Origin: Gadus chalcogrammus
Taxonomy: Eukaryota; Chordata; Actinopteri; Gadiformes; Gadidae
Reading direction: 5' to 3'
DNA: 64,000 nucleotides
Assembly (NCBI RefSeq): GCF_026213295.1
Contig: NC_079425.1
Location: 15,394,623-15,458,622, forward strand
Shown here in pieces: positions 21,368 to 46,313 of this stretch (positions are counted from its first letter, which is position 1; each line of letters starts with the position of its first letter). Under the pieces are notes generated by a model that searched no databases, was not told the origin of the DNA, and worked only from the letters and a program-made list of their open reading frames with translations. The position numbers were made by a program, and so were the translations under genes.

Positions 21368-23616
21368 ACACTCAGCATTTAACAGGGCTTAAGACTGTGA
21401 CCAAAATGATTGCATTTATTGTGTGGATGGGAGGTAATGTGTTCCTAAGTCCAGTTGGGACAGTAAAAAAGTAGACGCATAGAGCATCAGAATAACGCTT
21501 CAAAAAGAAAAATGACAAAATCAGGACTAAGTGCTGCATGAAAGAGGTCAGTGGCTTTCTGATCCACTCTTGGTCCGAGTCCTGCTAGGTTATGTCAGAG
21601 CTTCAATATGAAGTGGTCGGCTCACCAGACGAGCAATGTATCTATTGTTGAGTTTATTCGGTTCAGAAAACCTACCAGTCTCGGATGATATTTAGACGCC
21701 GTCCCGGCAGGGCTCAAAACTAGGATTTTCTAACTTCTTCATTTGGCATGTCCGTTGTCACAGAACCTTCCCTCTGTGTATATTCATTATAAAAGATTCA
21801 CTCACTTTGAAATTATCAAAAAATGTTTTTATTGCATTGGTAGTCTTTTTATTTTTTTCTACTGCCAGTGACTTGACATCTCGAGATTTGTCATCTACAA
21901 TAGTACATTTCTGCCCATGCTTGTGAATAGAGATAGTGTTGCTGTGCTATTATTATTATTATTTATTGAAACCTTTGCCACATGCTCTCAATAACTTTCG
22001 GCACATCCAAAACCTTGGCGTATGTACTAATTATATTAAACATGGAACAAGACCTAAATTCAACGCTGCCTGGCGTGGTGCTCCATGGCTTGTATAGTGT
22101 GTGTCCTGCTTTACATTGAAGCTCTGCTGTAACAGAGTCAAACTCGGACCAAGTGTGGATCCGAAGCCACCGACTTCCTCCACACAGCACTTGATAATAC
22201 AGTTTTGCTTTTTTAAGCTTGATTCCAATAAAACATGTATTTTAGGGTGATGAAGCGTGGTTTCAATGATTGCGTCTGGTATCGCGATATCAGAGGTATG
22301 ACTCGGGAGAGTAGTAAAGGATCAACATGCGTTACAGAGATGCAAGGTAAATGGACAGATTGTTTAAAAAAGGATTCAGCAAAAATTCTTATGGTGCCAA
22401 GAAAAGTGTGTGGCACTAGTAGTACATGATAGTCTTGAGCCCTGTTTGAACACATTCTTTTCATTAAGCTTGCAGAGATTGTAAACTACGTTTGTGCTAT
22501 TCAATTAGTCATTTGCTTGGAATTGAAAAGCATTCATTCGAATCATACAAGCACATGCTAAAGTTTTGTTTACGGGCTACAAACACACACAACTTAAAGG
22601 ATTTTGGCTTGATTGCTCGGATCCCAGGTTAATTGTTGACAAAATCTCTTGTCTATATGTAAAATCTAAGTGTGCAGGCCGGGCACCTCATTCATTCATA
22701 AAATCGACCTACATTTTTGGCAAATTAAAGCCATTGAATCCCTTTCTACAACAAGTGAGTCTTCGGTGGTGTAATCATGGTGTCTGTATTGTTCATCCCA
22801 AGTAAGTGCATTCAAACGGCCCTGATTAGGTCATTTTCACCAATTTATGAAAAAATAATGTTTTGATTCTGCTTTTACACACAGTTAGAAATCTGAGTGA
22901 AGATCAGAGTCGAAACTTGTCGATCTGTTTATTTTTGGGCACTATTGTAGAAACCTATGATTACTTATGTTGAACAAAACAATAATACAGCTATTGGAGC
23001 TGCTTTATTGGGAAGAGAATGGATGTCAATGGGTCTCCAACTTGGGGTCATTGAAAAACAGGGAAATAATTAAAGCTATTTATGCTCTGTTGTTGCAGAA
23101 CTAAACTACAGGGGGTGTCGTGCTGTACAGCTGAATTTACGTGTGCTTTGTTGCTGTATAGATCCAGCCCCGGCATTCGTGCTCCCTCAGTGTTTGTTCA
23201 AGAAATGTAGTTTGCCAGAAAGCATAGGACTCTTTCCCAGCCACCCACGCATCCAAAGAGAAGTGCGCAACAGTGTCTCCATGCGTGTCAGTGAGTGGCT
23301 GTGCGTGAGTGTGTCCGCCTGAGTGTGTCCGCGTGAGTGTGTCCATGCACGCAAGATGAATCCAGTGACATGCTAAGATAAGACATCAGCATAGCAGTGA
23401 CTGTATTCCTTCGCTCTTCTCTTCCCCCTAAATAACTGACAACTCTTTAAACCTCAACAACCGATTGTATTGCTGCTGAAAACATCAGTCATTACCAATT
23501 GAATGGCTAGCCTAGCATCTAGTAGCAAAACTAAACCAAAGTGTTTGTACTTATTCTGGTAAACCTTGTTGGCAACACAAGTAGCTTGTTGTTGTTTTGG
23601 TGATTGATAAATCAAA
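21368..23616. other. Unassigned DNA
   Basis: Apart from the repeat at 22065-22190 and three short GTGAGTGTGTCCGC-like units at 23304-23346, nothing was recognised. ORFs are short and overlap one another in different frames. Confidence 0.45.
22065..22190 (-). repeat. Old repeat family, copy B (related to 6403-6500)
   Basis: Minus-strand reading: CCVEEVGGFGSTLGPS, then LLQQSFNVKQD, then YTSHGAPRQAA. With a frame change it continues toward the left as STYAKVLDVPKVIESMWQRF (to 21963). It matches copy A in order, orientation and several conserved residues. The continuation looks protein-like, so a decayed coding repeat or gene copy is plausible. The family was not recognised. Confidence 0.4.
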
Positions 23617-24238
23617 AACATAATGTATAAACGGCTAGAAACTGGGTATAAAAGTAAAGCAACAAGTTGTTTTCTCCCTGGTTATGGAGATTATCAGCAA
23701 ACTAAATCTACTGTACAAGCACTCCTATCCCCTTCTGCTTTGGAACAGTGAGTGCAGCGTGTGAAAGCAGAGTGCTAATTTTGTGGAAAGGAGAGAGGAG
23801 GAGTTTGTCACAAATCTTTGGGTTGTGGCGGTTATTTGATTTTTCTTGTGGTGAACGTCGTTTGACGTCGGTCAGAAGCTAATTCAACATTTTAGAGAGC
23901 CCCAATAACGGTTTACACTCTTTAGTGTACATTCTCCATTCATACTCGTTGTGGTGGTATTGGATTAAATTATTTTTCGTGGACACTGATTAAACTGAAG
24001 TAGAACAGGAGGGAACATACTTCAGTTAAAGACACACACACGTGACACGTTGATCTGTTGCATGAACGCGACCAAGCAGAAGACAGCTTGGCAAAGTGGA
24101 TTTTTAAGTTTTTTTTCCAGTTTGTATTGTGTACTGTTGTTGGCAGCTACCTGTTTAGCATCCCTAGTACCTACCTACCTTTGTCTGGGATGCTGTTATA
24201 GTTCTGTATTTTAGCCGTGTGAACTCAGCCATGACTGT

Positions 24239-25142
24239 AAGGCCACTCACACTAGGGCCAACGCCCCGTGCCCGAGCTCATTTGCATATTCAAGTCTAGA
24301 ACGTTCGGCTAGTGTGACCACGCCATCCGTATTCCAGCACAGAACAGCCCCTTGGCCACGGCACACCTGGGAGAGGTGTGCCGTGGCCAAAGTACAGATG
24401 CTAATGAGATGACACGCGCGGATACTCAACGTGAGCTGGATGACGTAGTCCTTGCGTGACCCTTCTTTCTTTGTAGGTCCAAGTCCTTCTTCCCCACAAC
24501 AATCATTTTAGACAATGGCGGCAAGCGGTTCACGAGTGGGTTTACGTTGATGCGATAGTGAAGTCGAGTGTTTACTTGAAATTTGGGCAGACGACAGCAT
24601 TTAGTCGCAGCTGGACACCACGCTTGGTGATGACGTATTTATCGTATTACGACTCGATGACGTATGTATGAAGGAGCAATCGTGCCCAGGCCACGGCCTT
24701 TGTAGCAGTGTGACCACGGGCCAGCGGGGGGAGTGGGGACTGGGGAGGGGGGGAATCGTGCTTCTTCTTCTTTCGTGTAATTTCCTTTGGAACTATCACA
24801 CAGGGATTGCTACATTCAGCAGCCAGTTCAGTGTCTCTCCGTCCAGCTGTACCAGGCCTCTACGGCCATGTGGGGTACCAAAGGTCGGGCACTCGTTGAT
24901 TATGTGTGAGACCGTCTGGGTAGCCCCACATTGGCAGGTGTCTGAGGGGCTTGATCCTGTCATTTTCTGGAAGGACTGGGTTCTCCCCCAGGTTCTGGAT
25001 CGAGCAGAGAACCTCTACGTGGTGATCCTAGTAACGACTCATAGTCGGCTAATCTCAGCAACTCAATTTCCAGAAGGAAACTATACATACTAGGGAATCT
25101 TCAGCACGGAACAGGCAAACGGCCCTAGTGTGAGTGGCCCCT
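24239..25142. mobile_element. MITE with GGCCACTCACACTAGGGCC ends, copy 1, carrying a LINE insertion
   Basis: The left end GGCCACTCACACTAGGGCC pairs with the right end GGCCCTAGTGTGAGTGGCC. Other copies are at 35405-36325 (duplicate) and 60034-60594 (inverted and lacking the LINE insertion). A perfect 17-bp stem with a 5-base loop lies at 24352-24368/24374-24390. The interior includes GATGACGTATGTATGAAGGA and other words shared by all three copies. No TSD was identified. The long plus-strand ORF crossing it is fortuitous. Confidence 0.85.
24763..25092 (-). pseudogene. 5'-truncated non-LTR retrotransposon fragment (reverse transcriptase C-terminus)
   Basis: The minus strand encodes CQCGATQTVSHIINECPTF, then GRRGLVQLDGETLNWLLN, and stops at 24796-24798. 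The pattern C-x-C ... H-x4-C is typical of the Cys/His tail of LINE polyproteins (jockey/Nimb-like or CR1-like; the clade was not settled). A GAA/GAAG-rich tail follows the stop, as for a LINE 3' end. The sequence GGGAATCGTGCT flanks it on the left (24751-24762). The right duplicate is intact in the second copy (36267-36278) but trimmed by 10 bp here. Confidence 0.75.
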
Positions 25143-26125
25143 TGTGTGGAGAAGAGAAAACATGCTGATTAGGCAGTTAGGAGTTGATGGACTTGTCTAG
25201 ACAATGACTACTGCGACCCTTTAAATGGGCGTCCTACGTTCTAAGGGAACATTGCGCGTTTTCTTTTTATACAGGTCTGTAGTGAAATTACAATCCCAAT
25301 GTACGCATTTAAATATGTACGATGGTTTGGTCATATCTGGTTATTCTAACAACAACCTGGATCATCCGGTTGTTTGCTGTGTGATGTTTAATATTTAGAT
25401 TAGTCGATTGGCTCTATGTTTAATTGGTTGGACAATCGCTGATGTCCTATTCTCTGGGGCCCGAGGGACACATGCAGACTGAATAATTTTACCCCTTAGT
25501 GATGAATTGTGTTAGAAATGTCCTTGATAATGAATAGAAATAATCTTAAAGGCGCCGTTGTTTCTGTTGTATTAATCATATTCATAGGCTTAAAGACTTG
25601 GTAAAACCCCTGTTTTCACAAGTTTGAATAAAAAAATGAAGTACTTAGTCTTTTATAAAAAGTTCAAAATGTTAGCTCTTCGACTAATCGATTGGTCCAA
25701 AAGTAGGTTTAATTTTAAGTTCATCAAGGTTCTCTGGTTGACTACTGACATACCTGGATGAATTCAAGGGGGAATATTTCGATGTCATACTTTCTCTAAA
25801 CTTGTAGTGGATCAACACACTGTGTGTGTTGGTCCACTTTCATAATCCAAGCTACACTGGAGTAGAATGCTAGATTCTAATCAAATCCACTGCTTAGGTC
25901 TGTATTAAGCCTTGATTAGGGTGTGCGAAACCCTTTAGCCAACTTTTTTTTAACCTATCAATGTTTGCATGCGTGTTGACTACATCAGCCTCAGAGCGTG
26001 CCTTTATGTGCATTTGTGCTCGTGTACGCGCTTGTCTGTGCAACTCTTTTGTGCGTCCACATTTGATTCAGCCTCATCATCACAGCGCAAGTAAATTGTC
26101 CTGAATTGCACTTTTACTTTGTATG

Positions 26126-26566
26126 TGTGTCTGACTGATATATCGGTTGCAAGATTTTGGCCTTTCACAGATATATCTGTATCAAAGTATATGTCTGCCG
26201 ATATGAAAACTTTAGAAATGGTTGTTTATAAATGTAATTACCTCTTTAGAATTCCTCTACAGGGCTGGTTGGACCTCTAAATGCTTACTGAGCATCCACC
26301 TAAACCCTCCCAACACTAACAGTTTTATATCATATCCTGTGTGAAGGTTAGTAGCTCCTCCCCATATGGTTCATTGGTTCCGTTAGCCCAAGATGTTGCT
26401 GAGGCCCGAACTACAGCTGCTCAACCCCCAGGGTACCACAATATATTTTTTTCGAAATCTGACAATATATGTACATTTTGAATATTGGCCGATGAAACGA
26501 TGTCGGTAATGTTTTTCTCCCTAATATCGGTATAGGACCCTAAAATCCAATATTGATTGGGCGCTA
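26126..26566. mobile_element. Degraded hAT-like element, copy 1
   Basis: The left end CTGACTGATATATCGG and the right end CCAATATTGATTGGGCGCTA resemble fish elements of the TAGxxCTGACCGATATATCGG type. Subterminal ATATCGG words recur on both sides. Candidate flanking octamers agree at only 4 of 8 positions, so the termini are provisional. The duplicate copy is at about 37305-37758. Confidence 0.5.
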
Positions 26567-27952
26567 GTCTGATGTTATGTACATGTTGGTGTTCTAGGTA
26601 ATCGCTTCCCAGTGAGCTCCATGTTCTTTTCCTCCAGTTTTATGCGTCCCCTATAGGGTTAACTCCTCCGGTTTAGCCATAGTAACTGCCCGTTTGCCGG
26701 CCCACTTTTAATATTAAGAAAAGAGGGGGGGGGGGGGGGGACTTGAGTTGGATAAAGAAAGAGGGTTGATGAAACTAGAAACTGCATGTGACGAGCAATA
26801 GGATGAGAGTTCCTCCTCACCTGCTTTACAAGCACACACAGAGAATAGTGGACACGCCAACACACTCAAGCCCATCCCAGTAGAGGATCTGTCCAGATAA
26901 TGTGGAGCATTTTTTTTCATTGATTTGAATGTAAATACAGCATACACAGTGGTGGTTAGTTTAGTTAATTCACTCTTATTATAGGGGGTTAATGACACAG
27001 CCTCCGAGGTTTCTGGTTCCATTGGTCAAATGTCTATGGGAAATAACATTTCCTTCTACGATGATTTTTTGAATGATCGTACATAACAAACTCCGTAGGT
27101 GGCAAAGAAATAAAAGCTGCTCACGTTTTGAACAACACACTTTTTCCATCTAGATTCCACTTGGGTTTTGGATTGTCGATGCCGTTAAAGTAGTTAACTA
27201 TTATAAAGAAGCATTATGTTAACGCAGATCTGCTAGGTTGTGTGTTTTATAACAGACCCTTTCCTGCCTCCACTTCCCTGCGGAAGTGATGCAGTGCACA
27301 CTATTGGTATAATCATGCTCCTCTGTAGCCAATCAGGGCCCTCCTAAGGTGTTCTGTTGACCAGGCTTGTTTATCGCCTGACGATCCGTTGATGTCAAAC
27401 GTTTCACAATACGCTATTTAAAATCCAACAGTACACTGCAATGCTGAAGATCATATCCAAATTGCAGAAGATGGACATTCGAAAAATAACCGCCAGGGTA
27501 TCAAGTGATCTTACTGACACAATTGGAAAATATTGTGGGTGAAATATCAATTCAAGAAATGTGTTGTTTTGAATGCTGACAGTTTTTGGAGATGAGGAGC
27601 GTTGCTGCGGGAGTGGGTGGATGTTCTGCCACGTTCTGTAACGTATATCATGCCTGGTGAGGTGGAGGTGACGATACTGTCAAGATGGTGGAGCTGGGGT
27701 ACCAGGCGCTGCAGGTGACTGGCTGCCTGTCTCCAGGCAGAACCCCTTACACTGCGTCGCTATGGAGCCTGCTCCCGGGCTGCGTCCTCACATTGAGCCA
27801 CAAGCGTGATCCTGAATACATTTCCAGTGGCTGCGGGATTAGCAGATTAGCTGCCTTGGATGTTATTTCGTGCAGGGAGGATGTTTATAATGCCAGTCAC
27901 ACGCATGCCACAACGTAACTCGCTCTCTCGTGTACACAATGATGCATTACAG

Positions 27953-28062
<110 letters not shown>

Positions 28063-28289
28063 ATTTACAGCATGTCTATTCACTCCATCCCCTCCTCCTC
28101 CCTATGACCCTTCTTTCATTGTTTATCTCTCCTTTCACCCCTCTCTCTCCTGCATAGTCCCTCACCTCTCCTCTCCCCAGCTTCTACCTTTCTTATTTCT
28201 AAATGAATGAGCAGCGAGAGCTGTTCTATTAGAGACTGAGAAGGAGTGATGAAAACAGATCTAGGGGGAGGGAGGCAAATGGAGAGAGA

Positions 28290-28418
28290 GAGAGAGGGAG
28301 AGAGAGAGAGGCAAAGCAGTGCGGGCGGCAGGCTGCTATATATAGAGCAGTGTTCAACCTCAACATACCGATGATGTCACAGGGTGTAGGAGGGGGCGGG
28401 GCTACAGATTCCTGGCCA
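28290..28418 (+). promoter_or_regulatory. Promoter-like sequence: GA tract, TATA word, CRE-like and GC-box words
   Basis: An (AG)n tract is followed by CTATATATAG (28336-28345), TGATGTCAC (28372-28380) and GGGGGCGGGGCT (28392-28403). Together these resemble a vertebrate promoter neighbourhood, but no first exon or ORF with recognisable content follows within the window. Such words occur by chance at this scale, so the call is weak. The same block recurs in the duplicate at about 39475-39605. Confidence 0.15.
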
Positions 28419-30054
28419 AGAACCAGCTCTGCTGAATTCTAGCAGTTCCCTTCAAATTTTAAATGGCGGTTCTGATTCTCCCCCTCGGACCATAGGAAGG
28501 AGCAAGCTATTGTTTGAAAGACCTTGTTTTGAAATCATAAAGGTCTGCCTTTGTTAGTGGAAGGTTATTTAGTTGGTGTAGAAAAACAATTAAAGTGTCC
28601 TTTCTTACCTTGTTGGATTACTTGAATACAGTTTTTTCAGTACTGTAATACTGTTTGGCTGCAGCAGTATCATGATTGGCTACTTACACTTTGAGTCCAT
28701 ACATATTTTTCAGTGTCTATTACATTTGATTACATCAAATTGAATATAGTTTACTTGGCTGTAACAGTTACCAGTAGGTCATCAATAATCCTGTTTTCAA
28801 GTACACTGTATGAAATGCTTCCTGTTGTGTCTCAATATAAATTCAGATCCTGTTGTTGTGGTGAGGCCTACAGCCTTTTTCAATTGGACTACTGGCCTCG
28901 CTCCAGTTTGAAACCTGTTTGACTAGGTGCATTAAAGCGGGGAGTGTCTTTAACTGACAACGCGCTTGTCTTGAGTCGATGAAACAACAAACACTTATTG
29001 TAGCTTATTTAGTTTTATTCTATTGTCTACCATATAATTGTATTGATTCATATGAGAGACATTTCACATATCTGGGTTGTTTCAGTCCAACAAAACACAC
29101 AATTCAAATTCAACGGTCAATGTTCACCCCTTTTTTGCTTTCTTATCTCATTAACTCATTGAGAGACTATTTATTTAAGTCTTGTTGGCACATTTGAAAA
29201 TGTTTCACACATATTTCTCAGAGTGCCACACGATGTCCTTGATATTAGGACATGACTGGAATATTAATATCAGCAATCTAAAAATGTGAAAAATTCTCCA
29301 ATGTCCAGTAATTAGACAAAGACTAATCTGAAAGAAATCTGACGATATTTGTTTGTTATACAAAATACCTGGTTGAAATAGGACAACCTAAAATTAACGG
29401 GTTGTGCTTCCATCTAAACTTTCATTACCCTTTTCATTAGGCCAAACAAGTTTTAGGACCAAACAAATATTATTATTTTTAAAGGTCTATATTCATTACA
29501 TTTGAAAGAACCAGGGATGAGGTCATTGCAGCCTGTTTGGAGCTGGGTTGGGCTTGCTTTGGCCCAATTCTGGAGATGCAGTTCAGTGCGTTTATACTGG
29601 TAATGGAAACGCGTATCAGCCTAGTATGGTTTGAAGGGCAAAACCATAAGTGCAAATGGCAGAATGGCAGAAGAAAGGCCACTTCTTTACAGAGCCACTG
29701 TGTTGGCATTGGTGTGGGTGACTCACTTGTCAGCAGAACTTCAGGCATTGGAGGACTCTGCCCCAGGGCTATAGAGCAACAGGTGCCCTCTCTTGATGAC
29801 TCTTCCAAAAAGCAACATTGTGGCTGTTTAGCTACAAGTGATATACAAGACTAACCGCTTGGTCCTTCACACGTTCTGATGTTTGGGTTGGGGGTATGGC
29901 TGTGATATCATGACGCATCACGTGGTCATGCCGCTATCTCAGAAACAGGCAAACATTTGAATACAGCATGCTTATGGTCTAGTTGCACTGTTGTTGCTTG
30001 GATTAATCCTTATCACGGTTTAAGGTTAGACTTTAATGTGAAATATGGCTCTTG

Positions 30055-30201
<147 letters not shown>

Positions 30202-30784
30202 ACGTGTACTAGCACAAGCAAGCACATGCTTGCACATAAGTTGCTAGGCAACCGGCAGAAGAGAGTTCTGGACTGCAATGTTTTTTTCTCATTCTAATGG
30301 AGGGGACGTGAGTGAATGGAAAGGAGTAACAGTAAACTGGATTCAAGTTCAAAATAATTCCATAAATTACTGATTACAGCCTGCCGGGAGGAATAATCAA
30401 ATTCGATCATTTTTGTAAGTTGATATGTTGAAACTAGCTGTAGAAACACCCATTGTTGTGATGGCTGATTACATTGTATTTATATATCGAATGAGAGCTA
30501 GTTATTCTAAGCTCTTTTACATTTCCCAATAATTTACAACCGTTTAAATCACACAAGATGCACTCATTACGATCTTAGGACTTGCTTACACCCCAAATAA
30601 CATAATTTTTTTTTATGTTCAGTGTTCCTAACGAACACTTCAACCACAACACTAAGTACTTGCCAACTATGACGACATATTTTCCGTTATGCAAAACGGC
30701 ACAGGCGGAATTAGCCGACCCATTAGTAAATGGCTATGCAACAGTTATTTTCCCCTCGCAGCACAAATACGACTCTGGTCTTGT

Positions 30785-31728
30785 CCTCATCCTCATACGC
30801 TAATCCGGGGTCGGGTCGCGGGGGCAGCAGCTCAAGCAGTGGTCCCCAGACTTCCCTTTCCCGGGCCATATTGACCAGCTCTGACGGGGGGATCCCAAGG
30901 CGTTTCCAGGCCAGTGTTGAGATGTGATCTCTTCACCTAGTCCTGGGTCTTCCCCGAGAAAACCCCCTATGGGGGGCACCGAGTGGGCATCGTTACTAGA
31001 TGGTATACTTATGAGCGCCCTTATGTTCGAACATGGTGTTTGTTATGGACAATCCATGAGGAGCACAGAAGTCCAATAACAAACGACTGCTCGGGTTTTG
31101 ATCACCACACCTCTCCAGGTGTCTCCATCGTTGCGGTGAAGTCTCCCAGCAGAACTACGGAGTCCCCTACAGGACTCCATTCAGGGTCTCCAAGAAGGCT
31201 GAGTACTCTGAACTTCTGTTCGGTGCGTACGCCGTACGCACAAACAACTGTCAGAGTTTTCCCCCCCACCACCCTTAGGTGTAGGGAGGGAGGCGACCCT
31301 CTCGTCCTCCGGGGTAAACTCCAAAACCACCTTCACTGCCACTCATGTGGTAGCGCACCCGACCCCAGCAGGTCTTCCTGCAGTTGGTGGGCCCACAGGA
31401 CGAGGAGGGGGGGATGCCACGTTGCTTTTTCGGGCTATGCCCGGCTGGGCTCCGTGGAAAACCCGGCAACCAGGTGCTCGCCGACGAGCCCTCCGTCTAG
31501 GCCTTGCTCCGGATGGGGGCCCATGGCTTCCTCCGGGCAGGGTCTCTCCTCCTCTGTCTTGTTCTTTCATGGGGTCTTGGTGAACAGTTCTTAGTCTGGC
31601 CCCTCACCTGAGACCACTCTACCATGGGAGACCCTACCTGGAGCACAAGGCTCCAGACACCACAGCCCTCAGGTTCACAGGGACATGCAAAGCTCTCCAC
31701 CACGACAAGGTGATGGTTCTAGGAGAGG
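30785..31728 (-). pseudogene. Internally deleted LINE (CR1/L2/Rex type), copy 1
   Basis: The plus strand is the reverse complement of a LINE common in fish. The 3' end is on the left (TCCGGGGTCGGGTCGCGGG near 30803, then GGGATCCCAAGGCG). Within about 30 bases the sequence jumps to the 5' endonuclease region. There the minus strand reads TLTVVCAYAPN, EYSAFLETLNGVL and SVVLLGDF in shifting frames, the APE-type endonuclease core. The 5' leader runs to about 31728. The whole reverse-transcriptase domain is missing and stops and frameshifts interrupt the rest, so it is inactive. The 203-residue plus-strand ORF here is the antisense shadow. Confidence 0.85.
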
Positions 31729-32172
31729 TTTGACTCTTGGCTTGTACTTTCCGCAAACAAACATGTTTGGTTATACACTTCAAACGCTGTGGATGTGGAT
31801 GGTGAAAACACTTTCCTCCTTTGACTTTATCCTGTCACTGTTTGTATTTTATTCTTTCCCATCGGTGTGCAGCTGGTTCATGCTATTCGAGATTGTTATT
31901 TCATACCATCAAACCTGTAGGAGTATATATATTGGCATTTTTGCTATTTTTATTATCACCATTGTCATTATTATTAATATGCTATACTTTACTTAGCACT
32001 AAATGGCACCAGATTAGGGCGTATGTTCTGGTAAGAAGCGTGTTGCTGTTTCAATTGCAAATGTTTATTTTTGTGTTAAATTAAAGAAGCCATATAAAGA
32101 GCTGCCTCTTTTATTTATTTTTGGTGATGAGAGAAAAGTGGAAAAGTGTTTTTAAGTAACGTAGAGAGCAGG

Positions 32173-32296
<124 letters not shown>

Positions 32297-32579
32297 AAGT
32301 AGAAGCAAGCAGTAGAGAACAAGGCAGTGGGGGGGCACGAGTGTCAGACGTATTTGTGGTTTAATGACCGTGTAAGCTAGCTAGCTACGTGGCTAGCTCC
32401 CTCCCTAGCTGGCTGCAATATCCATTGTGTGATTAATACGAACGCTGGTCTATGGTTCTGGCTAGCATGGGATAAGCTCAAAACAATCATGATGGAGGAT
32501 GCAGGATCAGAAAAAGCAAGGCAGGAACGCTAGCTTGGGTCTGCTTCTAGTATACCATCTGCCCTGCCTGCCTGCCGCA

Positions 32580-32720
32580 GTCAGGGGGAGGGGAAAAGGA
32601 GGGGGGGGAGGGAGAGAGGTATGAATGGGGGAGGGGCGGAGTCATCGAGGTAACAACAGAGTAGCAGCACTGAGCAGCTCTGTCGTTCTGTCTCCTCGCT
32701 CTTGTTTCTGCTCTGTCTCA
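32580..32720 (+). promoter_or_regulatory. GA/GC-rich promoter-like block
   Basis: A purine-rich run (GGGGGAGGGGAAAAGGAGG onward) is followed by GGGGCGGAGTCATCGAGG, a GC-box-like word, and a pyrimidine-rich stretch. The composition differs from the surroundings. No exon was identified downstream, so a regulatory role is only a possibility. It is repeated in copy 2 at about 43730-43870. Confidence 0.12.
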
Positions 32721-33442
32721 CGCTACTCAAACCAGCCAATGGCAGCACTGCAAAATTATTTAATACTTTTTTTTAAAAATATGCCACTACAATAACTGCC
32801 TTTATCTATTGTTGCAGACTTTGTACATGTTTTATATAATGCCGATATTTACAAATTCTACAGAAATCAGTTTGAATACATAAACGTGTATAATAGCTAT
32901 TTTTGTTCATTCGTGAGCATTGTTATGCAATTTAGAGAATTAGAATAGATTTTTGTTTGTGTTGAGTTTATTGAGCTTATATGTGTATCCCATCGCTGCT
33001 TCACTTGTGTTTAGCTCTAGCTCTGAGCTCTGGCGTTGATGTAGACCTTCCCAAGCCCCACCTGGCAATGCATTCCCGCCCACATGCCACGAGCACATGT
33101 ATCTCTACACCCACACAGCCGCTCTCGGAGACGTGGCTTACTTTAATTAGTTCCTCCATGCTGAGAAGCCGGCCTTGAGAATAGCAGAGCAGTATGTGAG
33201 ATAGCGATGTATTAATGGCGTGCACTCTGTATAACAGCACTTTTCTAAAACTCGGACGTGCTCAAAGCACAATTGGACAATAACTGCTGCCTTGCAATCA
33301 ACCCTTCGTTGACATGTCGGAGACAAGGCTGGAGCCGTTAGTGTTCTGCTGTCTTGCACAGGGATAGATCCTTGGCCAGGGAGTTAGGTGATGGCTAAAT
33401 AGTTGATTGTTAGATAAACGATAATTAGATGGATTTTGATTG

Positions 33443-33530
33443 CAGTGTTTCCTCTAGAATTTTTTTCAGGCCTGGTGGTACGTACTGAAAAAACCTAAAC
33501 GGACGAGGCGCAGAATGGCAAATTGGCGTG
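33443..33530. mobile_element. Terminal fragment of a fish DNA-transposon family, copy 1
   Basis: CAGTGTTTCCTCTAGAATTT followed by CAGGCCTGGTGGTA matches the remembered end of a widespread fish repeat of the CAGTGTTTCCC type. No opposite end was found. The counterpart is at 44592-44679. Confidence 0.35.
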
Positions 33531-33995
33531 GTCTTCTTTGGTCACATAGCAGGCCGTCAGCAATTTATCTTTGCGTTCAAATGTTTGTTCACTTGGTATA
33601 TCAAGACTGATAAAGCAAAGTGATCACGAGGAGAGGATTACTTGGATAAAGTGCATTTATTGCATAAAAAGAAATATGAACTTTGTTAAACATAGCAGTA
33701 GACACACTGCAATCTCTGTTTTGCAAAAAGGAGTAATTATTATGTTCGCACCAAGGTTGATATATTTACGTCTTCCACAAGCGATGATATCTGATTTACC
33801 AATCACATTCAGGTATTTTTGTCAGTCACCATGGCCAATGTACAAGTTGTACGACATTGCGGCGGCCTAATTACGTTTCTCAAGTGTTCTTACTGATCCA
33901 TAGTGGTAAACTTAAAACATAGACCTATACTGATCATCGCTATCTGTTATATGTATTGATCATTCATCTCGATAGCGGTCTGTGCTACAAGGCAA

Positions 33996-34032
33996 TGTTT
34001 ACTTGCACTGTGGTACGCAGTGCAAGTAAACA
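33996..34032. repeat. Perfect 15-bp hairpin
   Basis: TGTTTACTTGCACTG (33996-34010) is followed by a 7-base spacer and its exact reverse complement (34018-34032). The counterpart is at 45145-45181. Function is unknown; it may be the centre of a small palindromic element. Confidence 0.8.
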
Positions 34033-34552
34033 CTGTCTGACTGAATAGGTTGCTTTTGATAACATGAAGGTGTGCAGTTGTATTGCAACAGTTTCGTAAC
34101 AACTCTGTAAAGGGTGTTAGCCTATTTTCACGTGTGCAAACTTGTCACATTTCAGTGAATTAACTTGAATAGTGCAGCCACATGAATTGTGTAGATCTGC
34201 AAACAATATATTTGGGGTGTGTTGGTTTTACATCTCATCCAAGTAACGTGAAAGTTAAAAAAATACATATCTTTGCTACCATCTTGGACATTTAGTTATG
34301 TACATTTGCATAAAATCATGCAGGTCTACAATATAACTGGGCGATAGCTTTGATAGGTTGCAACGGTGGACTGAAATCACTTGGATTTGACCGTTCGGTA
34401 AATAAGTAAACAGAAGTTTGTTCTTTTTTAAACACAACATGTGGGGAAGCTGACATTCAGCTTAAGTCTGAGCGAGGGTGAGTTTACTGAGCCCCCCAAA
34501 ACCAGGCAGGTACCTGGCAGAAAGAGGCGATACAGATTTTAATTTGGGCAAG

Positions 34553-34660
34553 TGAACATGACATTCGGGCAAGTTGAACATGACCTGTACTTGCCCGATG
34601 GGCAACCTGTACTTGGGCAACCTGTACTAGCCCGATGGGCAAGTATAGGTTTTTTACTTT
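34553..34660. repeat. Short inverted and direct repeats of ACTTGCCCGATGGGCAAG type
   Basis: CCTGTACTTGCCCGATGGGC, CCTGTACTTGGGCAA and CCTGTACTAGCCCGATGGGC follow each other. CTTGCCC/GGGCAAG form small palindromes. Probably part of a MITE. It is duplicated at about 45715-45800. Confidence 0.5.
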
Positions 34661-34734
34661 TGAAACCTTAGTGTCAACCCCTGGAACTACCGTTTGTCAA
34701 TATTTCTATACAATTGGCAGAACACAAAGTACCC

Positions 34735-34834
34735 NNNNNNNNNNNNNNNNNNNNNNNNNNNNNNNNNNNNNNNNNNNNNNNNNNNNNNNNNNNNNNNNNN
34801 NNNNNNNNNNNNNNNNNNNNNNNNNNNNNNNNNN
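34735..34834. other. Assembly gap, exactly 100 N
   Basis: A run of exactly 100 undetermined bases, the conventional size for a scaffold gap of unknown length. It separates the two copies of the 11-kb repeat. Both copies abut it directly. Confidence 0.99.
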
Positions 34835-35404
34835 AACATAAGGTATAAACGGCTAGAAACTAGGTATAAAATAAAGCAAGGTTTTTCTCCGGTTATGGAG
34901 AGATCAGCAAACTAAATCTACTGTACAAGATCCCCTCTGCTCAGTGCAGAAAGAGTGCTAATTTTGTGGAAAGGATTTGTCACAAATCTTTGGGTTTTGG
35001 CGGTCATTTGATTTTCTTGTGGTGAACGTCGTTTGACGTCGGTCAGAAGCTAATTCAACATTTTAGAGAGCCCCAATAACGGTTTACACTCTTTAGTGTA
35101 CATTCTCCATTCATACTCGTTGTGGTGGTATTGGATTAAATTATTTTTCGTGGACACTGATTAAACTGAATTAGAACAGGAGGGAACATACTTCAGTTAA
35201 AGACACACACACGCGACACGTTGATCTGTTGCATGAACGTGACCAAGCAGAAGACAGCTTGGCAAAGTGGATTTTTAAGTTTTTTTCCAGTTTGTATTGT
35301 GTACTGTTGTTGGCAGCTACCTGTTTAGCATCCCTAGTACCTACCTTTGTCTGGGATGCTATTATAGTTCTGTATTTTAGCCGTGTGAACTCAGCCATGA
35401 CTGT

Positions 35405-36325
35405 AAGGCCACTCACACTAGGGCCAACGCCCCGTGCCCGAGCTCATTTGCATATTCAAGTCTAGAACGTTCGGCTAGTGTGACCACGCCATCCGTATTC
35501 CAGCACAGAACAGCCCCTTGGCCACGGCACACCTGGGAGAGGTGTGCCGTGGCCAAAGTACAGATGCTAATGAGATGACACGCGCACACGCGCGGATACT
35601 CAACGTGAGCTGGATGACGTAGTCCTTGCGTGACCCTTCTTTCTTTAGGTCCAAGTCCTTCTTCCCCACAACAATCATTTTAGACAATGGCGGCAAGCGG
35701 TTCACGAGTGGGTTTACGTTGATGCGATAGTGAAGTCGAGTGTTTACTTGAAATTTGGCAGACGACAGCATTCAGTCGCAGCTGGACACCACGCTTGGTA
35801 ATGACGTATTTATCGTATTACGACGTGATGACGTATGTATGAAGGAGCAATCGTGCCCAGGCCACGGCCTTTGTAGCAGTGTGACCACAGGCCAGCCGGG
35901 GGAGATGGGACTGGGGAGGGGTGGGAATCGTGCTTCTTCCTTCTTCTTTCGTGTATTTCCTTTGGAACTATCACACAGGGATTGCTACATTCAGCAGCCA
36001 GTTCAGTGTCTCTCCGTCCAGCTGTACCAGGCCTCTACGGCCATGTGGGGTGCCAAAGGTCGGGCACTCGTTGATTATGTGTGAGACCTCTGGGTAGCCC
36101 CCACATTGGCAGGTGTCTGAGGGGCTTGATCCTGTCATTTTCTGGAAGGACTGGTTCTCCCCCAGGTTCTGGATCGAGCAGAGAACCTCTACGTGGTGAT
36201 CCTAGTAACGACTCATAGTCGGCTAATCTCAGCAACTCAATTTCCAGAAGGAAACTATACATACTAGGGAATCGTGCTGAATCTTCAGCACGGAACAGGC
36301 AAACGGCCCTAGTGTGAGTGGCCCC
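35405..36325. mobile_element. MITE with GGCCACTCACACTAGGGCC ends, copy 2
   Basis: Duplicate of 24239-25142, with the hairpin at 35518-35534/35540-35556. It carries the same LINE insertion, here with both target duplications intact. Confidence 0.85.
35935..36266 (-). pseudogene. LINE 3' fragment nested in the MITE, intact 12-bp TSD
   Basis: GGGAATCGTGCT flanks the fragment at 35923-35934 and 36267-36278. The uninterrupted version of the same site exists in the MITE copy at 60034-60594, where it reads (reverse complement) GGGAATCGTGCTGAATCTTC. The insert is therefore 332 bp plus one 12-bp duplication. The orientation is minus, with the RT C-terminal Cys/His segment as in copy 1. It is 5' truncated and non-functional. 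Confidence 0.85.
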
Positions 36326-37304
36326 TTGTGTGGAGAAGAGAAAACATGCTGATTAGGCAGTTAGGAGTTGATGGACTTGTCTAGACAATGACTACTGCGA
36401 CCTTTAAATGGGCGTCCTACGTTCTAAGGGAACATTGCGCGTTTTCTTTTTATACAGGTCTGTAGTGAAATTACAATCCAAATGTACGCATTTAAATATG
36501 TACGATGGTTTGGTCATATCTGGTTATTCTAAACACAACCTGGATCATCCGGTTGTTTGCTGTGTGATGTTTAATATTTAGATTAGTCGATTGGCTCTAT
36601 GTTTAATTGGTTGGACAATCGGCTGATGTCCTATTCTCTGGGGCCCGAGGGACACATGCAGACTGAATAATTGTACCCCTTAGTGATGAATTGTGTTAAA
36701 AATGTCCTTGATAATGAATAGAAATAATCTTAAAGGCGCCGTGTTCTGTTGTATTAATCATATTTCATAGGCTTAAAGACTTGGTAAAACCCCTGTTTTT
36801 CACAAGTTTTGAATAAAAAAATGAAGTACTTAGTCTTTTATAAAAAGTTCAAATGTTAGCTCTTCGACTAATCGATTGGTCCAAAAGTAGGTTTAATTTT
36901 AAGTTCATCAAGGTTCTCTGGTTGACTACTGACATACCTGGATGAATTCAAGGGGGAATATTTCGATGTCATACTTTCTCTAAACTTGTAGTGGATCAAC
37001 ACACTGTGTGTGTTGGTCCACTTTCATAATCCCAGCTACACTGGAGTAGAATGCTAGATTCTAATCAAATCCACTGCTTAGGCCTGTATTAAGCCTTGAT
37101 TAGGGTGTGTGAAACCCTTTAGCCAATTTTTTTTAACCTATCAATGTTTGCATGCGTGTTGACTACATCAGCCTCAGAGCGTGCCTTTATGTGCATTTGT
37201 GCTCGTGTACGCGCTTGTCTGTGCAACTCTTTGTGCGTCCACATTTGATTCAGCCTCATCATCACAGCGCAAGTAAATTGTCCTGAATTGCACTTTTACT
37301 TTGT

Positions 37305-37758
37305 ATGTGTGTCTGACTGATATATCGGTTGGAAGATTTTGGCCTTTCACAGATATATCTGTATCAAAGTATATGTCTGCCGATATGAAAACTTTAGAAA
37401 TGGTTGTTTATAAATGTAATTACCTCTTTAGAATTCCTCTACAGGGCTGGTTGGACCTCTAAATGCTTACTGAGCATCCACCTAAAGCCTCCCAACACTA
37501 ACAGTTTTATATCATATCCTGTGTGAAGGTTAGTAGCTCCTCCCCATATGGTTCATTGGTTCCGTTAGCCTAAGATTTAACAAGATGTTGCTGAGGCCCG
37601 AACTACAGCTGCTCAACCCCCAGGGTACCACAATATATTTTTTTCGAAATCGGACAATATATGTACATTTTGAATATTGGGCGATGAAACGATGTCGGTA
37701 ATGTTTTTCTCCCTAATATCGGTATAGGACCCTAAAATCCAATATTGATTGGGCGCTA
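37305..37758. mobile_element. Degraded hAT-like element, copy 2
   Basis: Duplicate of 26126-26566, with the same provisional ends. Confidence 0.5.
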
Positions 37759-39146
37759 GTCTGATGTTATGTACATGTGGGTGTTCTAGGTAATCGCTTC
37801 CCAGTGAGCTCCATGTTCTTTTCCTCCAGTTTTATGCGTCCCCTATAGGGTTAACTCCTCCAGTTTAGCCATAGTAACTGCCCGTTTGCCGGCCCACTTT
37901 TAATATTAAGAAAAGAGGGGGGGGGGGGGGGGGACTTGAGTTGGATAAAGAAAGAGGGTTGATGAAACTAGAAACTGCATGTGACGAGCAATAGGATGAG
38001 AGTTCCTCCTCACCTGCTTTACAAGCACACACAGAGAATAGTGGACACGCCAACACACTCAAGCCCATCCCAGTAGAGGATCTGTCCAGATAATGTGGAG
38101 CATTTTTTTTTCATTGATTTGAATGTGAATACAGCATACACAGTGGTGGTTAGTTTAGTTAATTCACTCTTATTATAGGGGGTTAATGACACAGCCTCCG
38201 AGGTTTCTGGTTCCATTGGTCAAATGTCTATGGGAAATAACATTTCCTTCTACGATGATTTTTTGAATGATCGTACATAACAAACTCCGTAGGTGGCAAA
38301 GAAATAAAAGCTGCTCACGTTTTGAACTACACACTTTTTCCATCTAGATTCCACTTGGGTTTTGGATTGTCGGTGCCGTTAAAATAGTTAACTATTACGA
38401 AGAAGCATTATGTTAACGCAGATCTGCTAGGTTGTGTGTTTTATAACAGACCCTTTCCTGCCTCCACTTCCCTGCGGAAGTGATGCAGTGCACACTATTG
38501 GTATAATCATGCTCCTCTGTAGCCAATCAGGGCCCTCCTAAGGTGTTCTCTGTTGACCAGGCTTGTTTATCGCCTGACGATCCGTTGATGTCAAACGTTT
38601 CACAATACGCTATTTAAAATCCAACAGTACACTGCAATGCTGAAGATCATATCCAAATTGCAGAAGATGGACATTCGAAAAATAACCGCCAGGGTATCAA
38701 GTGATCTTACTGACACAATTGGAAAATATTGTGGGTGAAATATCAATTCAAGAAATGTGTTGTTTGAATGCTGACAGTTTTTGGAGATGAGGAGCGTTGC
38801 TGCGGGAGTGGGTGGATGTTCTGCCACGTTCTGTAACGTATATCATGCCTGGTGAGGTGGAGGTGACGATACTGTCAAGATGGTGGAGCTGGGGTACCAG
38901 GCGCTGCAGGTGACTGGCTGCCTGTCTCCAGGCAGAACCCTTACACTGCGTCGCTATGGAGCCTGCTCCCGGGCTGCGTCCTCACATTGAGCCACAAGCG
39001 TGATCCTGAATACATTTCCAGTGGCTGCGGGATTAGCAGATTAGCTGCCTTGGATGTTATTTCGTGCAGGGAGGATGTTTATAATGCCAGTCACACGCAT
39101 GCCACAACGTAACTCGCTCTCTCGTGTACACAATGATGCATTACAG

Positions 39147-39251
<105 letters not shown>

Positions 39252-41242
39252 GTTAATTTACAGCATGTCTATTCACTCCATCCCCTCCTCCTCCCTATGA
39301 CCCTTCTTTCATTGTTTATCTCTCCTTTCACCCCTCTCTCTCCTGCATAGTCCCTCACCTCTCCTCTCCCCAGCTTCTACCTTTCTTATTTCTAAATGAA
39401 TGAGCAGCGAGAGCTGTTCTATTAGAGACTGAGAAGGAGTGATGAAAACAGATCTAGGGGGAGGGAGGCAAATGGGGAGAGAGAGAGGGAGAGAGAGAGG
39501 CAAAGCAGTGCGGGCGGCAGGCTGCTATATATAGAGCAGTGTTCAACCTCAACATACCGATGATGTCACAGGGTGTAGGAGGGGGCGGGGCTACAGATTC
39601 CTGGCCAAGAACCAGCTCTGCTGAATTCTAGCAGTTCCCTTCAAATTTTAAATGACGGTTCTGATTCTCCCCCTCGGACCATAGGAAGGAGCAAGCTATT
39701 GTTTGAAAGACCTTGTTTTGAAATCATAAAGGTCTGCCTTTGTTAGTGGAAGGTTATTTAGTTGGTGTAGAAAAACAATTAAAGTGTCCTTTCTTACCTT
39801 GTTGGATTACTTGAATACCGTTTTTTCAGTACTGTAATACTGTTTGGCTGCAGCAGTATCATGATTGGCTACTTACACTTTGAGTCCATACATATTTTTC
39901 AGTGTCTATTACATTTGATTACATCAAATTGAATATAGTTTACTTGGCTGTAACAGTTACCAGTAGGTCATCAATAATCCTGTTTTCAAGTACACTGTAT
40001 GAAATGCTTCCTGTTGTGTCTCAATATAAATTCAGATCCTGTTGTTGTGGTGAGGCCTACAGCCTTTTTCAATTGGACTACTGGCCTCGCTCCAGTTTGA
40101 AACCTGTTTGACTAGGTGCATCAAAGCGGGGAGTGTCTTTAACTGACAACGCGCTTGTCTTGAGTCGATGAAACAACAAACACTTATTGTAGCTTATTTA
40201 GTTTTATTCTATTGTCTACCATATAATTGTATTGATTCATATGAGAGACATTCACATATCTGGGTTGTTTCAGTCCAACAAAACACACAATTCAAATTCA
40301 ACGGTCAATGTTCACCCCTTTTTTGCTTTCTTATCTCATTAACTCATTGAGAGACTATTTATTTAAGTCTTGTTGGCACATTTGAAAATGTTTCACACAT
40401 ATTTCTCAGAGTGCCACACGATGTCCTTGATATTAGGACATGACTGGAATATTAATATCAGCAATCTAAAAATGTGAAAAATTCTCCAATGTCCAGTAAT
40501 TAGACAAAGACTAATCTGAAAGAAATCTGACGATATTTGTTTGTTATACAAAATACCTGGTTGAAATAGGACAACCTAAAATTAACGGGTTGTGCTTCCA
40601 TCTAAACTTTCATTACCCTTTTCATTAGGCCAAACAAGTTTTAGGACCAAACAAATATTATTATTTTTAAAGGTCTATATTCATTACATTTGAAAGAACC
40701 AGGGATGAGGTCATTGCAGCCTGTTTGGAGCTGGGTTGGGCTTGCTTTGGCCCAATTCTGGAGATGCAGTTCAGTGCGTTTATACTGGTAATGGAAACGC
40801 GTATCAGCCTAGTATGGTTTGAAGGGCAAAACCATAAGTGCAAATGGCAGAATGGCAGAAGAAAGGCCACTTCTTTACAGAGCCACTGTGTTGGCATTGG
40901 TGTGGGTGACTCACTTGTCAGCAGAACTTCAGGCATTGGAGGACTCTGCCCCAGGGCTATAGAGCAACAGGTGCCCTCTCTTGATGACTCTTCCAAAAAG
41001 CAACATTGTGGCTGTTTAGCTACAAGTGATATACAAGACTAACCGCTTGGTCCTTCACACGTTCTGATGTTTGGGTTGGGGGTATGGCTGTGATATCATG
41101 ACGCATCACGTGGTCATGCCGCTATCTCAGAAACAGGCAAACATTTGAATACAGCATGCTTATGGTCTAGTTGCACTGTTGTTGCTTGGATTAATCCTTA
41201 TCACGGTTTAAGGTTAGACTTTAATGTGAAATATGGCTCTTG

Positions 41243-41362
<120 letters not shown>

Positions 41363-41940
41363 AACTAGCACAAGCAAGCACATGCTTGCACATAAGTTGC
41401 TAGGCAACCGGCAGAAGAGAGTTCTGGACTGCTATGTTTTTTTCTCATTCTAATGGAGGGGACGTGAGTGAATGGAAAGGAGTAACAGTAAACTGGATTC
41501 AAGTTCAAAATAATTCCATAAATTACTGATTACAGCCTGCCGGGAGGAATAATCAAATTCGATCATTTTTGTAAGTTGATATGTTGAAACTAGCTGTAGA
41601 AACACCCATTGTTGTGATGGCTGATTACATTGTATTTATATATCGAATGAGAGCTAGTTATTCTAAGCTCTTTTACATTTCCCAATAATTTACAACCGTT
41701 TAAATCACACAAGATGCACTCATTACGATCTTAGGACTTGCTTACACCCCAAATAACATAATTTTTTTTTATGTTCAGTGTTCCTAACGAACACTTCAAC
41801 CACAACACTAAGTACTTGCCAACTATGACGACATATTTTCCGTTATGCAAAACGGCACAGGCGGAATTAGCCGACCCATTAGTAAATGGCTATGCAACAG
41901 TTATTTTCCCCTCGCAGCACAAATACGACTCTGGTCTTGT

Positions 41941-42883
41941 CCTCATCCTCATACGCTAATCCGGGGTCGGGTCGCGGGGGCAGCAGCTCAAGCAGTGGTC
42001 CCCAGACTTCCCTTTCCCGGGCCATATTGACCAGCTCTGACGGGGGATCCCAAGGCGTTTCCAGGCCAGTGTTGAGATGTGATCTCTTCACCTAGTCCTG
42101 GGTCTTCCCCGAGAAAACCCCCTATGGGGGGCACCGAGTGGGCATCGTTACTAGATGGTATACTTATGAGCGCCCTTATGTTCGAACATGGTGTTTGTTA
42201 TGGACAATCCATGAGGAGCACAGAAGTCCAATAACAAACGACTGCTCGGGTTTTGATCACCACACCTCTCCAGGTGTCTCCATCGTTGCGGTGAAGTCTC
42301 CCAGCAGAACTACGGAGTCCCCTACAGGACTCCATTCAGGGTCTCCAAGAAGGCTGAGTACTCTGAACTTCTGTTCGGTGCGTACGCCGTACGCACAAAC
42401 AACTGTCAGAGTTTTCCCCCCCACCACCCTTAGGTGTAGGGAGGGAGGCGACCCTCTCGTCCTCCGGGGTAAACTCCAAAACCACCTTCACTGCCACTCA
42501 TGTGGTAGCGCACCCGACCCCAGCAGGTCTTCCTGCAGTTGGTGGGCCCACAGGACGAGGAGGGGGGGATGCCACGTTGCTTTTTCGGGCTATGCCCGGC
42601 TGGGCTCCGTGGAAAACCCGGCAACCAGGTGCTCGCCGACGAGCCCTCCGTCTAGGCCTTGCTCCGGATGGGGGACCATGGCTTCCTCCGGGCAGGGTCT
42701 CTCCTCCTCTGTCTTGTTCTTTCATGGGGTCTTGGTGAACAGTTCTTAGTCTGGCCCCTCACCTGAGACCACTCTACCATGGGAGACCCTACCTGGAGCA
42801 CAAGGCTCCAGACACCACAGCCCTCAGGTTCACGGGGACATGCAAAGCTCTCCACCACGACAAGGTGATGGTTCTAGGAGAGG
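41941..42883 (-). pseudogene. Internally deleted LINE, copy 2
   Basis: Duplicate of 30785-31728, with the same deletion joint and the same broken endonuclease. Only a few substitutions and one single-base indel were noticed between the copies, for example GGGGGGATCCC in copy 1 and GGGGGATCCC here. Confidence 0.85.
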
Positions 42884-43330
42884 TTTGACTCTTGGCTTGT
42901 ACTTTCCGCAAACAAACATGTTTGGTTATACACTTCAAACGCTGTGGATGTGGATGGTGAAAACACTTTCCTCCTTTGACTTTATCCTGTCACTGTTTGT
43001 ATTTTATTCTTTCCCATCGGTGTGCAGCTGGTTCATGCTATTCGAGATTGTTATTTCATACCATCAAACCTGTAGGAGTATATATATTGGCATTTTTGCT
43101 ATTTTTATTATCACCATTGTCATTATTATTAATATGCTATACTTTACTTAGCACTAAATGGCACCAGATTAGGGCGTATGTTCTGGTAAGAAGCGTGTTG
43201 CTGTTTCAATTGCAAATGTTTATTTTTGTGTTAAATTAAAGAAGCCATATAAAGAGCTGCCTCTTTTATTTATTTTTGGTGATGAGAGAAAAGTGGAAAA
43301 GTGTTTTTAAGTAACGTAGAGAGCAGGATT

Positions 43331-43445
<115 letters not shown>

Positions 43446-44591
43446 AAGTAGAAGCAAGCAGTAGAGAACAAGGCAGTGGGGGGGCACGAGTGTCAGACGT
43501 GTTTGTGGTTTAATGACCGTGTAAGCTAGCTAGCTACGTGGCTAGCTCCCTCCCTAGCTGGCTGCAATATCCATTGTGTGATTAATACGAACGCTGGTCT
43601 ATGGTTCTGGCTAGCATGGGATAAGCTCAAAACAATCATGATGGAGGATGCAGGATCAGAAAAAGCAAGGCAGGAACGCTAGCTTGGGTCTGCTTCTAGT
43701 ATACCATCTGCCCTGCCTGCCTGCCGCAGTCAGGGGGAGGGGAAAAGGAGGGGGGGGGAGGGAGAGAGGTATGAATGGGGGAGGGGCGGAGTCATCGAGG
43801 TAACAACAGAGTAGCAGCACTGAGCAGCTCTGTCGTTCTGTCTCCTCGCTCTTGTTTCTGCTCTGTCTCACGCTACTCAAACCAGCCAATGGCAGCACTG
43901 CAAAATTATTTAATACTTTTTTTAAAAATATGCCACTACAATAACTGCCTTTATCTATTGTTGCAGACTTTGTACATGTTTTATATAATGCCGATATTTA
44001 CAAATTCTACAGAAATCAGTTTGAATACATAAACGTGTATAATAGCTATTTTTGTTCATTCGTGAGCATTGTTATGCAATTTAGAGAATTAGAATAGATT
44101 TTTGTTTGTGTTGAGTTTATTGAGCTTATATGTGTATCCCATCGCTGCTTCACTTGTGTTTAGCTCTAGCTCTGAGCTCTGGCGTTGATGTAGACCTTCC
44201 CAAGCCCCACCTGGCAATGCATTCCCGCCCACATGCCACGAGCACATGTATCTCTACACCCACACAGCCGCTCTCGGAGACGTGGCTTACTTTAATTAGT
44301 TCCTCCATGCTGAGAAGCCGGCCTTGAGAATAGCAGAGCAGTATGTGAGATAGCGATGTATTAATGGCGTGCACTCTGTATAACAGCACTTTTCTAAAAC
44401 TCGGACGTGCTCAAAGCACAATTGGACAATAACTGCTGCCTTGCAATCAACCCTTCGTTGACATGTCGGAGACAAGGCTGGAGCCGTTAGTGTTCTGCTG
44501 TCTTGCACAGGGATAGATCCTTGGCCAGGGAGTTAGGTGATGGCTAAATATTTGATTGTTAGATAAACGATAATTAGATGGATTTTGATTG

Positions 44592-44679
44592 CAGTGTTTC
44601 CTCTAGAATTTTTTTCAGGCCTGGTGGTACGTACTGAAAAAACCTAAACGGACGAGGCGCAGAATGGCAAATTGGCGTG
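44592..44679. mobile_element. Terminal fragment of a fish DNA-transposon family, copy 2
   Basis: Duplicate of 33443-33530. Confidence 0.35.
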
Positions 44680-45144
44680 GTCTTCTTTGGTCACATAGCA
44701 GGCCGTCAGCAATTTATCTTTGCGTTCAAATGTTTGTTCACTTGGTATATCAAGACTGATAAAGCAAAGTGATCACGAGGAGAGGATTACTTGGATAAAG
44801 TGCATTTATTGCATAAAAAGAAATATGAACTTTGTAAAACATAGCAGTAGACACACTGCAATCTCTGTTTTGCAAAAAGGAGTAATTATTATGTTCGCAC
44901 CAAGGTTGATATATTTACGTCTTCCACAAGCGATGATATCTGATTTACCAATCACATTCAGGTATTTTTGTCAGTCACCATGGCCAATGTACAAGTTGTA
45001 CGACATTGCGGCGGCCTAATTACGTTTCTCAAGTGTTCTTACTGATCCATAGTGGTAAACTTAAAACATAGACCTATACTGATCATCGCTATCTGTTATA
45101 TGTATTGATCATTCATCTCGATAGCGGTCTGTGCTACAAGGCAA

Positions 45145-45181
45145 TGTTTACTTGCACTGTGGTACGCAGTGCAAGTAAACA
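45145..45181. repeat. Perfect 15-bp hairpin, copy 2
   Basis: Duplicate of 33996-34032, unchanged. Confidence 0.8.
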
Positions 45182-45895
45182 CTGTCTGACTGAATAGGTT
45201 GCTTTTGATAACATGAAGGTGTGCAGTTGTATTGCAACAGTTTCGTAACAACTCTATGTAAAGGGTGTTAGCCTATTTTCACGTGTGCAAACTTGTCACA
45301 TTTCAGTGAATTAACTTGAATAGTGCAGCCACATGAATTGTGTAGATCTGCAAACAATATATTTGGGGTGTGTTGGTTTTACATCTCATCCAAGTAACGT
45401 GAAAGTTAAAAAAATACATATCTTTGCTACCATCTTGGACATTTAGTTATGTACATTTGCATAAAATCATGCAGGTCTACAATATAACTGGGCGATAGCT
45501 TTGATAGGTTGCAACGGTGGACTGAAATCCCTTGGATTTGACCGTTCGGTAAATAAGTAAACAGAAGTTTGTTCTTTTTTAAACACAACATGTGGGGAAG
45601 CTGACATTCAGCTTAAGTCTGAGCGAGGGTGAGTTTACTGAGCCCCCCAAAACCAGGCAGGTACCTGGCAGAAAGAGGCGATACAGATTTTAATTTGGGC
45701 AAGTGAACATGACATTCGGGCAAGTCGAACATGACCTGTACTTGCCCGATGGGCAACCTGTACTTGGGCAACCTCTACTAGCCCGATGGGCAAGTATAGG
45801 TTTTTTACTTTTGAAACCTTAGTGTCAACCCCTGGAACTACCGTTTGTCAATATTTCTATACAATTGGCAGAACACAAAGTACCCTGCCCCAAAC

Positions 45896-46305
45896 TTAAA
45901 CTAAATTCAACCAGAAACGTCACATTTCAACAATCAATCTTGCTAGCTGTTGCTTCCTATCAGAATTGAATGACATCACTGTACTATAATACATTAATAC
46001 AATACAGGACACGCTTTTTCCCTACCAAGCAACATCACTGTACTATAAAATAGGCCAAGGCTACTTCACTACTTTTTATGATTATTGAAATTATAGGAGG
46101 CAGTATTTATCTCATTTGAGAGCTTGCATCTGAACATAAAAATGTTTAGCACTTTTTTTGGATGAGAATGAACACTTTCTTGCTCATAAACAGCTTTTTT
46201 GGCGCCAATATGTATCATTACCTTATCTAGAATATTCTGATTCAGCACTATAAAATAGTAAGAGGAATACATCTGTGTTTCGGTGGTGTTCTAATGAGGG
46301 GATCA
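45896..46305. other. Unassigned DNA right of the large repeat
   Basis: Single-copy sequence within the window. CATCACTGTACTATA occurs twice (about 45975 and 46030). No gene was recognised. Confidence 0.5.
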
Positions 46306-46313
46306 GACAAGAG

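Follow-up and report, generated by a model that had tools for sequence, protein, structure and literature searches.

Overlapping and alternative-haplotype contigs almost certainly laid end to end in the Gadus chalcogrammus genome assembly

The repeated stretch described here almost certainly consists of overlapping and alternative-haplotype pieces of one region that were laid end to end. We put at about 95% the probability that it is an un-purged haplotypic (heterotype) false duplication, an assembly artefact and not biology. The artefact is of an already known kind, and it concerns users of the assembly: analyses of copy number, segmental duplication, heterozygosity and read mapping would go wrong here. 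We began from a 64-kb stretch (the window, C14:15394623-15458622), and viewing only that much can lead to an incomplete fix for an error of this sort. In total, 334 kb of C14 were read, the window included, from an assembly of 629.9 Mb in 168 sequences. Coordinates are relative to the window, and negative values lie to its left.

Layout of the region

Four runs of N occur in the 334 kb, three of which are 100-N gaps; the window holds a single run, of 100 N (34735-34834). From left to right, the three gaps separate contigs X, Y, W and V (Table 1). In X, the distance separating the matches to W's two readable pieces equals the N run inside W to within five bases, so W was treated as one piece.

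Table 1. Contigs, repeat copies and other features of the region. Coordinates are relative to the window unless marked C14.
Feature	Position	Strand	Remarks
Contig X	-169999 to -26238		143.8 kb read, all gap-free
Contig Y	-26137 to -5100		21,038 bases, between two 100-N gaps
Contig W	-4999 to 34734		39,734 bases including one internal N run
W, window part	1-34734	+	Duplicate of X at C14:15333094-15367703; read as a contained alternate-haplotype contig
BED zinc finger ORF (PF02892)	20985-21356	minus	21.0 bits against a cut-off of 20.6
R copy in W	23617-34734	+	98.128% to 34835-45885; also in X at -37992 to -26920
Scaffold gap	34735-34834	.	One of three 100-N gaps
Contig V	34835 onward		Right of the window's gap
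Error-like head of V	34835-34985 (right edge approximate)	+	Rich in small deletions when set against the other two copies
R copy, start of V	34835-45885	+	Begins at the first base after the gap
X/V overlap past the end of W	45886-46573	+	688 V bases, 682 in X; X then stops at its own 100-N gap
(GT)n tract 1	W 27955-28060, V 39149-39250		Lengths 106/102; in X no uninterrupted stretch reaches 24
(GT)n tract 2	W 30058-30198, V 41246-41360		Lengths 141/115; X agrees with W (141)
(GT)n tract 3	W 32174-32294, V 43332-43443		Lengths 121/112; X split into 33 and 50

The repeat in the window

The original prediction, made from the window, described a near-identical direct repeat (R) split by the gap. 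BLASTN of the window against itself bears this out, aligning 23617-34734 with 34835-45885 on the same strand at 98.128% identity over 11163 columns, with 52 mismatches and 60 gap openings. A match of 11 kb at 98% is far beyond chance. As had been stated, the first copy runs to the last base before the gap and the second starts at the first base after it; the end of the repeat had been set at 45895, about 10 bases too far, and the alignment ends at 45885. The second copy was also correctly described as about 52 bases shorter within its first 570 bases. Its net shortfall reaches 46 bases at V 35000, 47 at V 35100 and 52 at V 35404, and falls mostly in the first ~165 bases.

Contained and overlapping contigs

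A further copy of R exists beyond the window. When a 1-kb probe from R (30000-31000) was searched against the genome (best 40 of 1214 candidates scored), three full-length matches were obtained, all on C14: both window copies and one located 61.6 kb upstream. The third copy belongs to X, within which the whole of window positions 1-34734 aligns at -61529 to -26920, with 99.158% identity, 81 mismatches and 151 gap openings in 34778 columns. A readable piece of W to the left of the window gives 98.647% over 2513 columns, starting from X -66546. Likewise, Y lies within X end to end, at -153214 to -132155 (21136 columns, 98.827%), and Y and W keep the order and orientation that their matching segments have in X. 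Probes of 7 kb from W (16000-23000) and from Y each gave two full-length matches in the assembly among the best candidates scored, namely the contig itself and its counterpart in X, the W matches both being on C14.

One earlier candidate, in which Y was an unrelated or haplotype-specific insertion, fell once the sequence 100-170 kb left of the window was read. Against the 73.8 kb of X that were read first, Y has no match, and it aligns to the other pieces over only ~60-220 columns.

The tail of X overlaps V as well. X -37992 to -26238 aligns with V 34835-46573 in two blocks of 97.844% and 99.119% identity, the second of which pairs X -31551 to -26238 with V 41246-46573. X and V are identical over the 60 bases that follow the point where W ends. 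Under the distinction made in PMC7203741, Y (end to end) and both readable pieces of W lie inside X as contained haplotigs do, and the alignment of X with V, taken as an alignment only, reaches both contig ends, as it would in a heterozygous overlap. That class is defined by a contig end that matches another contig's start, together with low depth on both.

These results bear on the repair that was originally put forward. The window's left contig (A-R) and right contig (R-B) had been thought to overlap by R only, making the true locus A-R-B, and the exact abutment of the R copies of W and V on the gap speaks for such an overlap. However, all of A-R is present again in X, and X reaches 688 V bases further into V than W does. 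The scheme as drawn still leaves A duplicated and survives only as a local description of how W and V overlap; the simple two-contig overlap was rejected, the left contig being itself contained in X. As an account of the locus, we find A-R-B barely credible. The extent of 11 kb originally assigned to the duplication was too small; the error comes to ~72.5 kb of redundant sequence, several times what is visible in the window.

Contig ends and junctions

There are six contig ends at the three 100-N gaps, and every one coincides exactly with a boundary of a match to another contig (the N run inside W is excluded from this count). The right end of X corresponds to V 46573. Y begins at X -153214 and ends at X -132155, and the left end of W (-4999) corresponds to X -66546. 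The right end of W coincides with X -26920 and V 45885, and the left end of V with X -37992 and W 23617. Every 100-N gap in the sequence read, three of three, has duplicated contigs on its two sides. It had been proposed from the window that overlapping or haplotype contigs were left unmerged and that the gap betrays a false duplication, a reading that is supported in kind. The accompanying argument, that edges of a real duplication falling at a gap would be a coincidence, has become stronger, now that it applies to three gaps instead of one.

No self-match longer than 400 bases is present within the 143.8 kb of X, and neither Y nor the window part of W has one above 1 kb. V has 29 self-matches longer than 1 kb, and among the listed matches of more than 500 bases all those above 1 kb lie in a minisatellite at 113-116 kb. 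An ungapped junction between units, as expected of a true tandem segmental duplication, was therefore not found in X, in Y or in the window part of W, and the listed self-matches of V are of minisatellite scale only. Duplications of the size at issue were not found within any one contig.

Real nested segmental duplications, each broken by the assembler, would have to comprise a unit offset by 61.5 kb (W), a unit offset by 127 kb (Y) and an 11-kb tandem unit (R). True repeats are places where assemblers do break, the assembly does hold three copies of R, and X, which has few private substitutions (see below), could be a slowly changing ancestral copy. Nevertheless, every junction would need to coincide with a gap at three of three 100-N gaps, no contig was seen reading through a junction, and consensus error and phase switching would account for the indel-rich, blocky pattern of differences from X. 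We consider this explanation highly improbable.

Indels and consensus error

Many small indels distinguish the contigs, and these look like long-read consensus errors. Indels outnumber substitutions between X and W (127 to 117), X and Y (123 to 111) and X and V (68 to 59), whereas no such excess is seen between X and the part of W read to the left of the window (12 indels, 20 substitutions) or between W and V (42 and 75). An excess of indels is unusual for alleles or paralogues and usual for long-read consensus sequence, and its occurrence in three of four comparisons with X suits long-read consensus error. The same excess points to X as the rougher sequence. For one-base indels between X and W, the base is missing in X in 75 of 92 cases; between X and Y they are balanced (51 and 48). 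Private one-base deletions within R number 21 in X, 15 in V and none in W, and those of X are presumably consensus errors.

The start of V resembles the unpolished end of a long-read sequence. Counted against X in successive blocks of 100 alignment columns, its differences number 14, 49, 1, 0, 2, 1, 0, 8, 2 and 0, with 63 in the first 200 columns and 3 in the next 300.

Substitutions and alleles

When compared as sequences, the copies differ at allele-like sites. The 117 substitutions between X and W are blocky: 42 are clustered in the first 1.4 kb, 8 lie in 2-15 kb, 1 in 15-16 kb, 63 in 16-29 kb and 3 in 29-34.7 kb. Such blocks are as expected from phase switching. Because only three substitutions fall in the last block, this segment would be a same-haplotype (homotype) duplicate, although one GT tract within it differs despite the near-identity of the two contigs (tract 3 in Table 1, 121 unbroken in W and 33 + 50 in X).

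Within R, all three contigs can be aligned. We counted as isolated sites the substitutions more than 8 columns from any other difference, closer ones being dropped before the count. At 32 such sites the odd one out is X twice, W 10 times and V 20 times, the low count for X having a binomial P of 3e-4 against equal thirds. Without the filter, the odd one out at 78 sites is X in 5, W in 19 and V in 54, the excess for V coming partly from its head. Nearly every substitution state of X is therefore common to W or V. The near absence of substitutions peculiar to X would be explained by two alleles being spread over three contigs, and the substitutions are consistent with two alleles.

Before V 39490, a boundary picked after the alignment of R had been inspected, 20 isolated sites comprise 10 that are W-only, 10 that are V-only and none that are X-only. 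The W-only and V-only sites are interleaved, which argues that X is no simple long-range phase switch in this part. Here X is necessarily either a consensus that mixes two alleles site by site or a third haplotype carrying ancestral states. A false duplication involving three haplotypes instead of two, through pooled individuals or higher ploidy, would account for a block in which X, W and V all differ, with their W-only and V-only sites intermingled. A third independent haplotype should carry private substitutions, however, and X has 0 of 20 in the block and 2 of 32 overall, so that we regard a third haplotype as unlikely.

A low count for X as odd one out is also expected if, of three real copies, X had simply mutated the least. 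A real, recent and polymorphic nested segmental duplication that was homogenised by gene conversion, and whose junctions defeated the assembler, would present R three times and W and Y twice each; we think the chance of this very slim. With two haplotypes and an un-purged false duplication, which we prefer, the copies would be alleles of one locus.

Origin of the duplication and its repair

Our preferred explanation takes X as a long primary contig that overlaps V in a dovetail of ~11.7 kb and should have been merged with it. Y (21.0 kb) and W (39.7 kb) would be alternate copies contained in X. The scaffolder, which was probably Hi-C based, would have taken Y and W as neighbours in the right order and orientation and inserted them, flanked by 100-N gaps, between X and V, so that the order became X, Y, W, V. 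We infer these steps of the assembly pipeline.

Both classes of retained sequence have precedents. In PMC7203741, contained haplotigs are distinguished from heterozygous overlaps, and linked-read and Hi-C scaffolders are said not to handle the latter, to its authors' knowledge. PMC9516828 counts gaps between duplicated pairs on one scaffold among the primary characteristics of a false duplication, alongside half depth, discordant linked reads and one-copy k-mers. The region resembles heterotype false duplications as the two papers describe them, with duplicated pairs separated by gaps on one scaffold and with contained haplotigs and overlaps of primary contigs retained. It departs from those cases in that two haplotigs and one overlap are stacked, so that R occurs three times. 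Contained haplotigs and a heterozygous overlap appear to stand side by side here.

Some features recall instead the homotype class, in which sequence is under-collapsed as a result of read errors (as set out in PMC9516828): X and W are near-identical in 29-34.7 kb, and the head of V is rich in errors. Another block between X and W, with 63 sites in 13 kb, is unlike that class and would be more allele-like than a product of errors.

For repair, we favour joining X to V through their overlap of ~11.7 kb, with Y and W set aside as alternates. Since A is already a duplicate, repairing the locus as A-R-B is wrong, and deleting one R within the window would leave ~61 kb redundant. The redundancy of ~72.5 kb on C14 here is the sum of Y (21,038), W (39,734, including its N run) and the X/V overlap (~11,739).

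Genes and repeats

Fifteen ORFs of the window gave one Pfam match, a BED zinc finger, in an ORF that we take to be a remnant of a hAT-type transposon. As regards false gene gain, this was also the only Pfam match among 11 ORFs of W, a search that small exons would escape. No Rfam family was found in the whole window at gathering thresholds.

Duplication by a mobile element was considered and rejected: the copies end at contig ends, and a dispersed repeat common to them sits at the corresponding position in each (X -37373, W 24241, V 35407). Several repeats were observed in the window. A short dispersed repeat of SINE-like length at 30781-30958, within R, has matches of 93-94% on many chromosomes and accounts for 37 of the 42 matches listed for the 1-kb probe (best 40 of 1214 candidates scored). 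Another, of ~300 bases at 19668-19969, recurs on many chromosomes at about 83-92%. An inverted pair of ~500 bases, 24241-24762 and 60086-60592, is 87.6% identical.

To the right of the window, Pfam gave no match for a 989-residue piece of the first of two long ORFs at 92452-100293, nor for a 182-residue ORF just downstream of it; the two long ORFs presumably belong to the ANKRD11/12 kind, which they look like. The right flank also holds an ORF with an RCC1 repeat (Pfam PF00415), in surroundings that we assume to be HERC1-like. The minisatellite array occupies 113022-116138, with kilobase-scale self-matches at about 80-98%. A reverse transcriptase domain (PF00078, E 1.8e-29) at L019:8465-9043, also right of the window, probably marks a LINE-type element.
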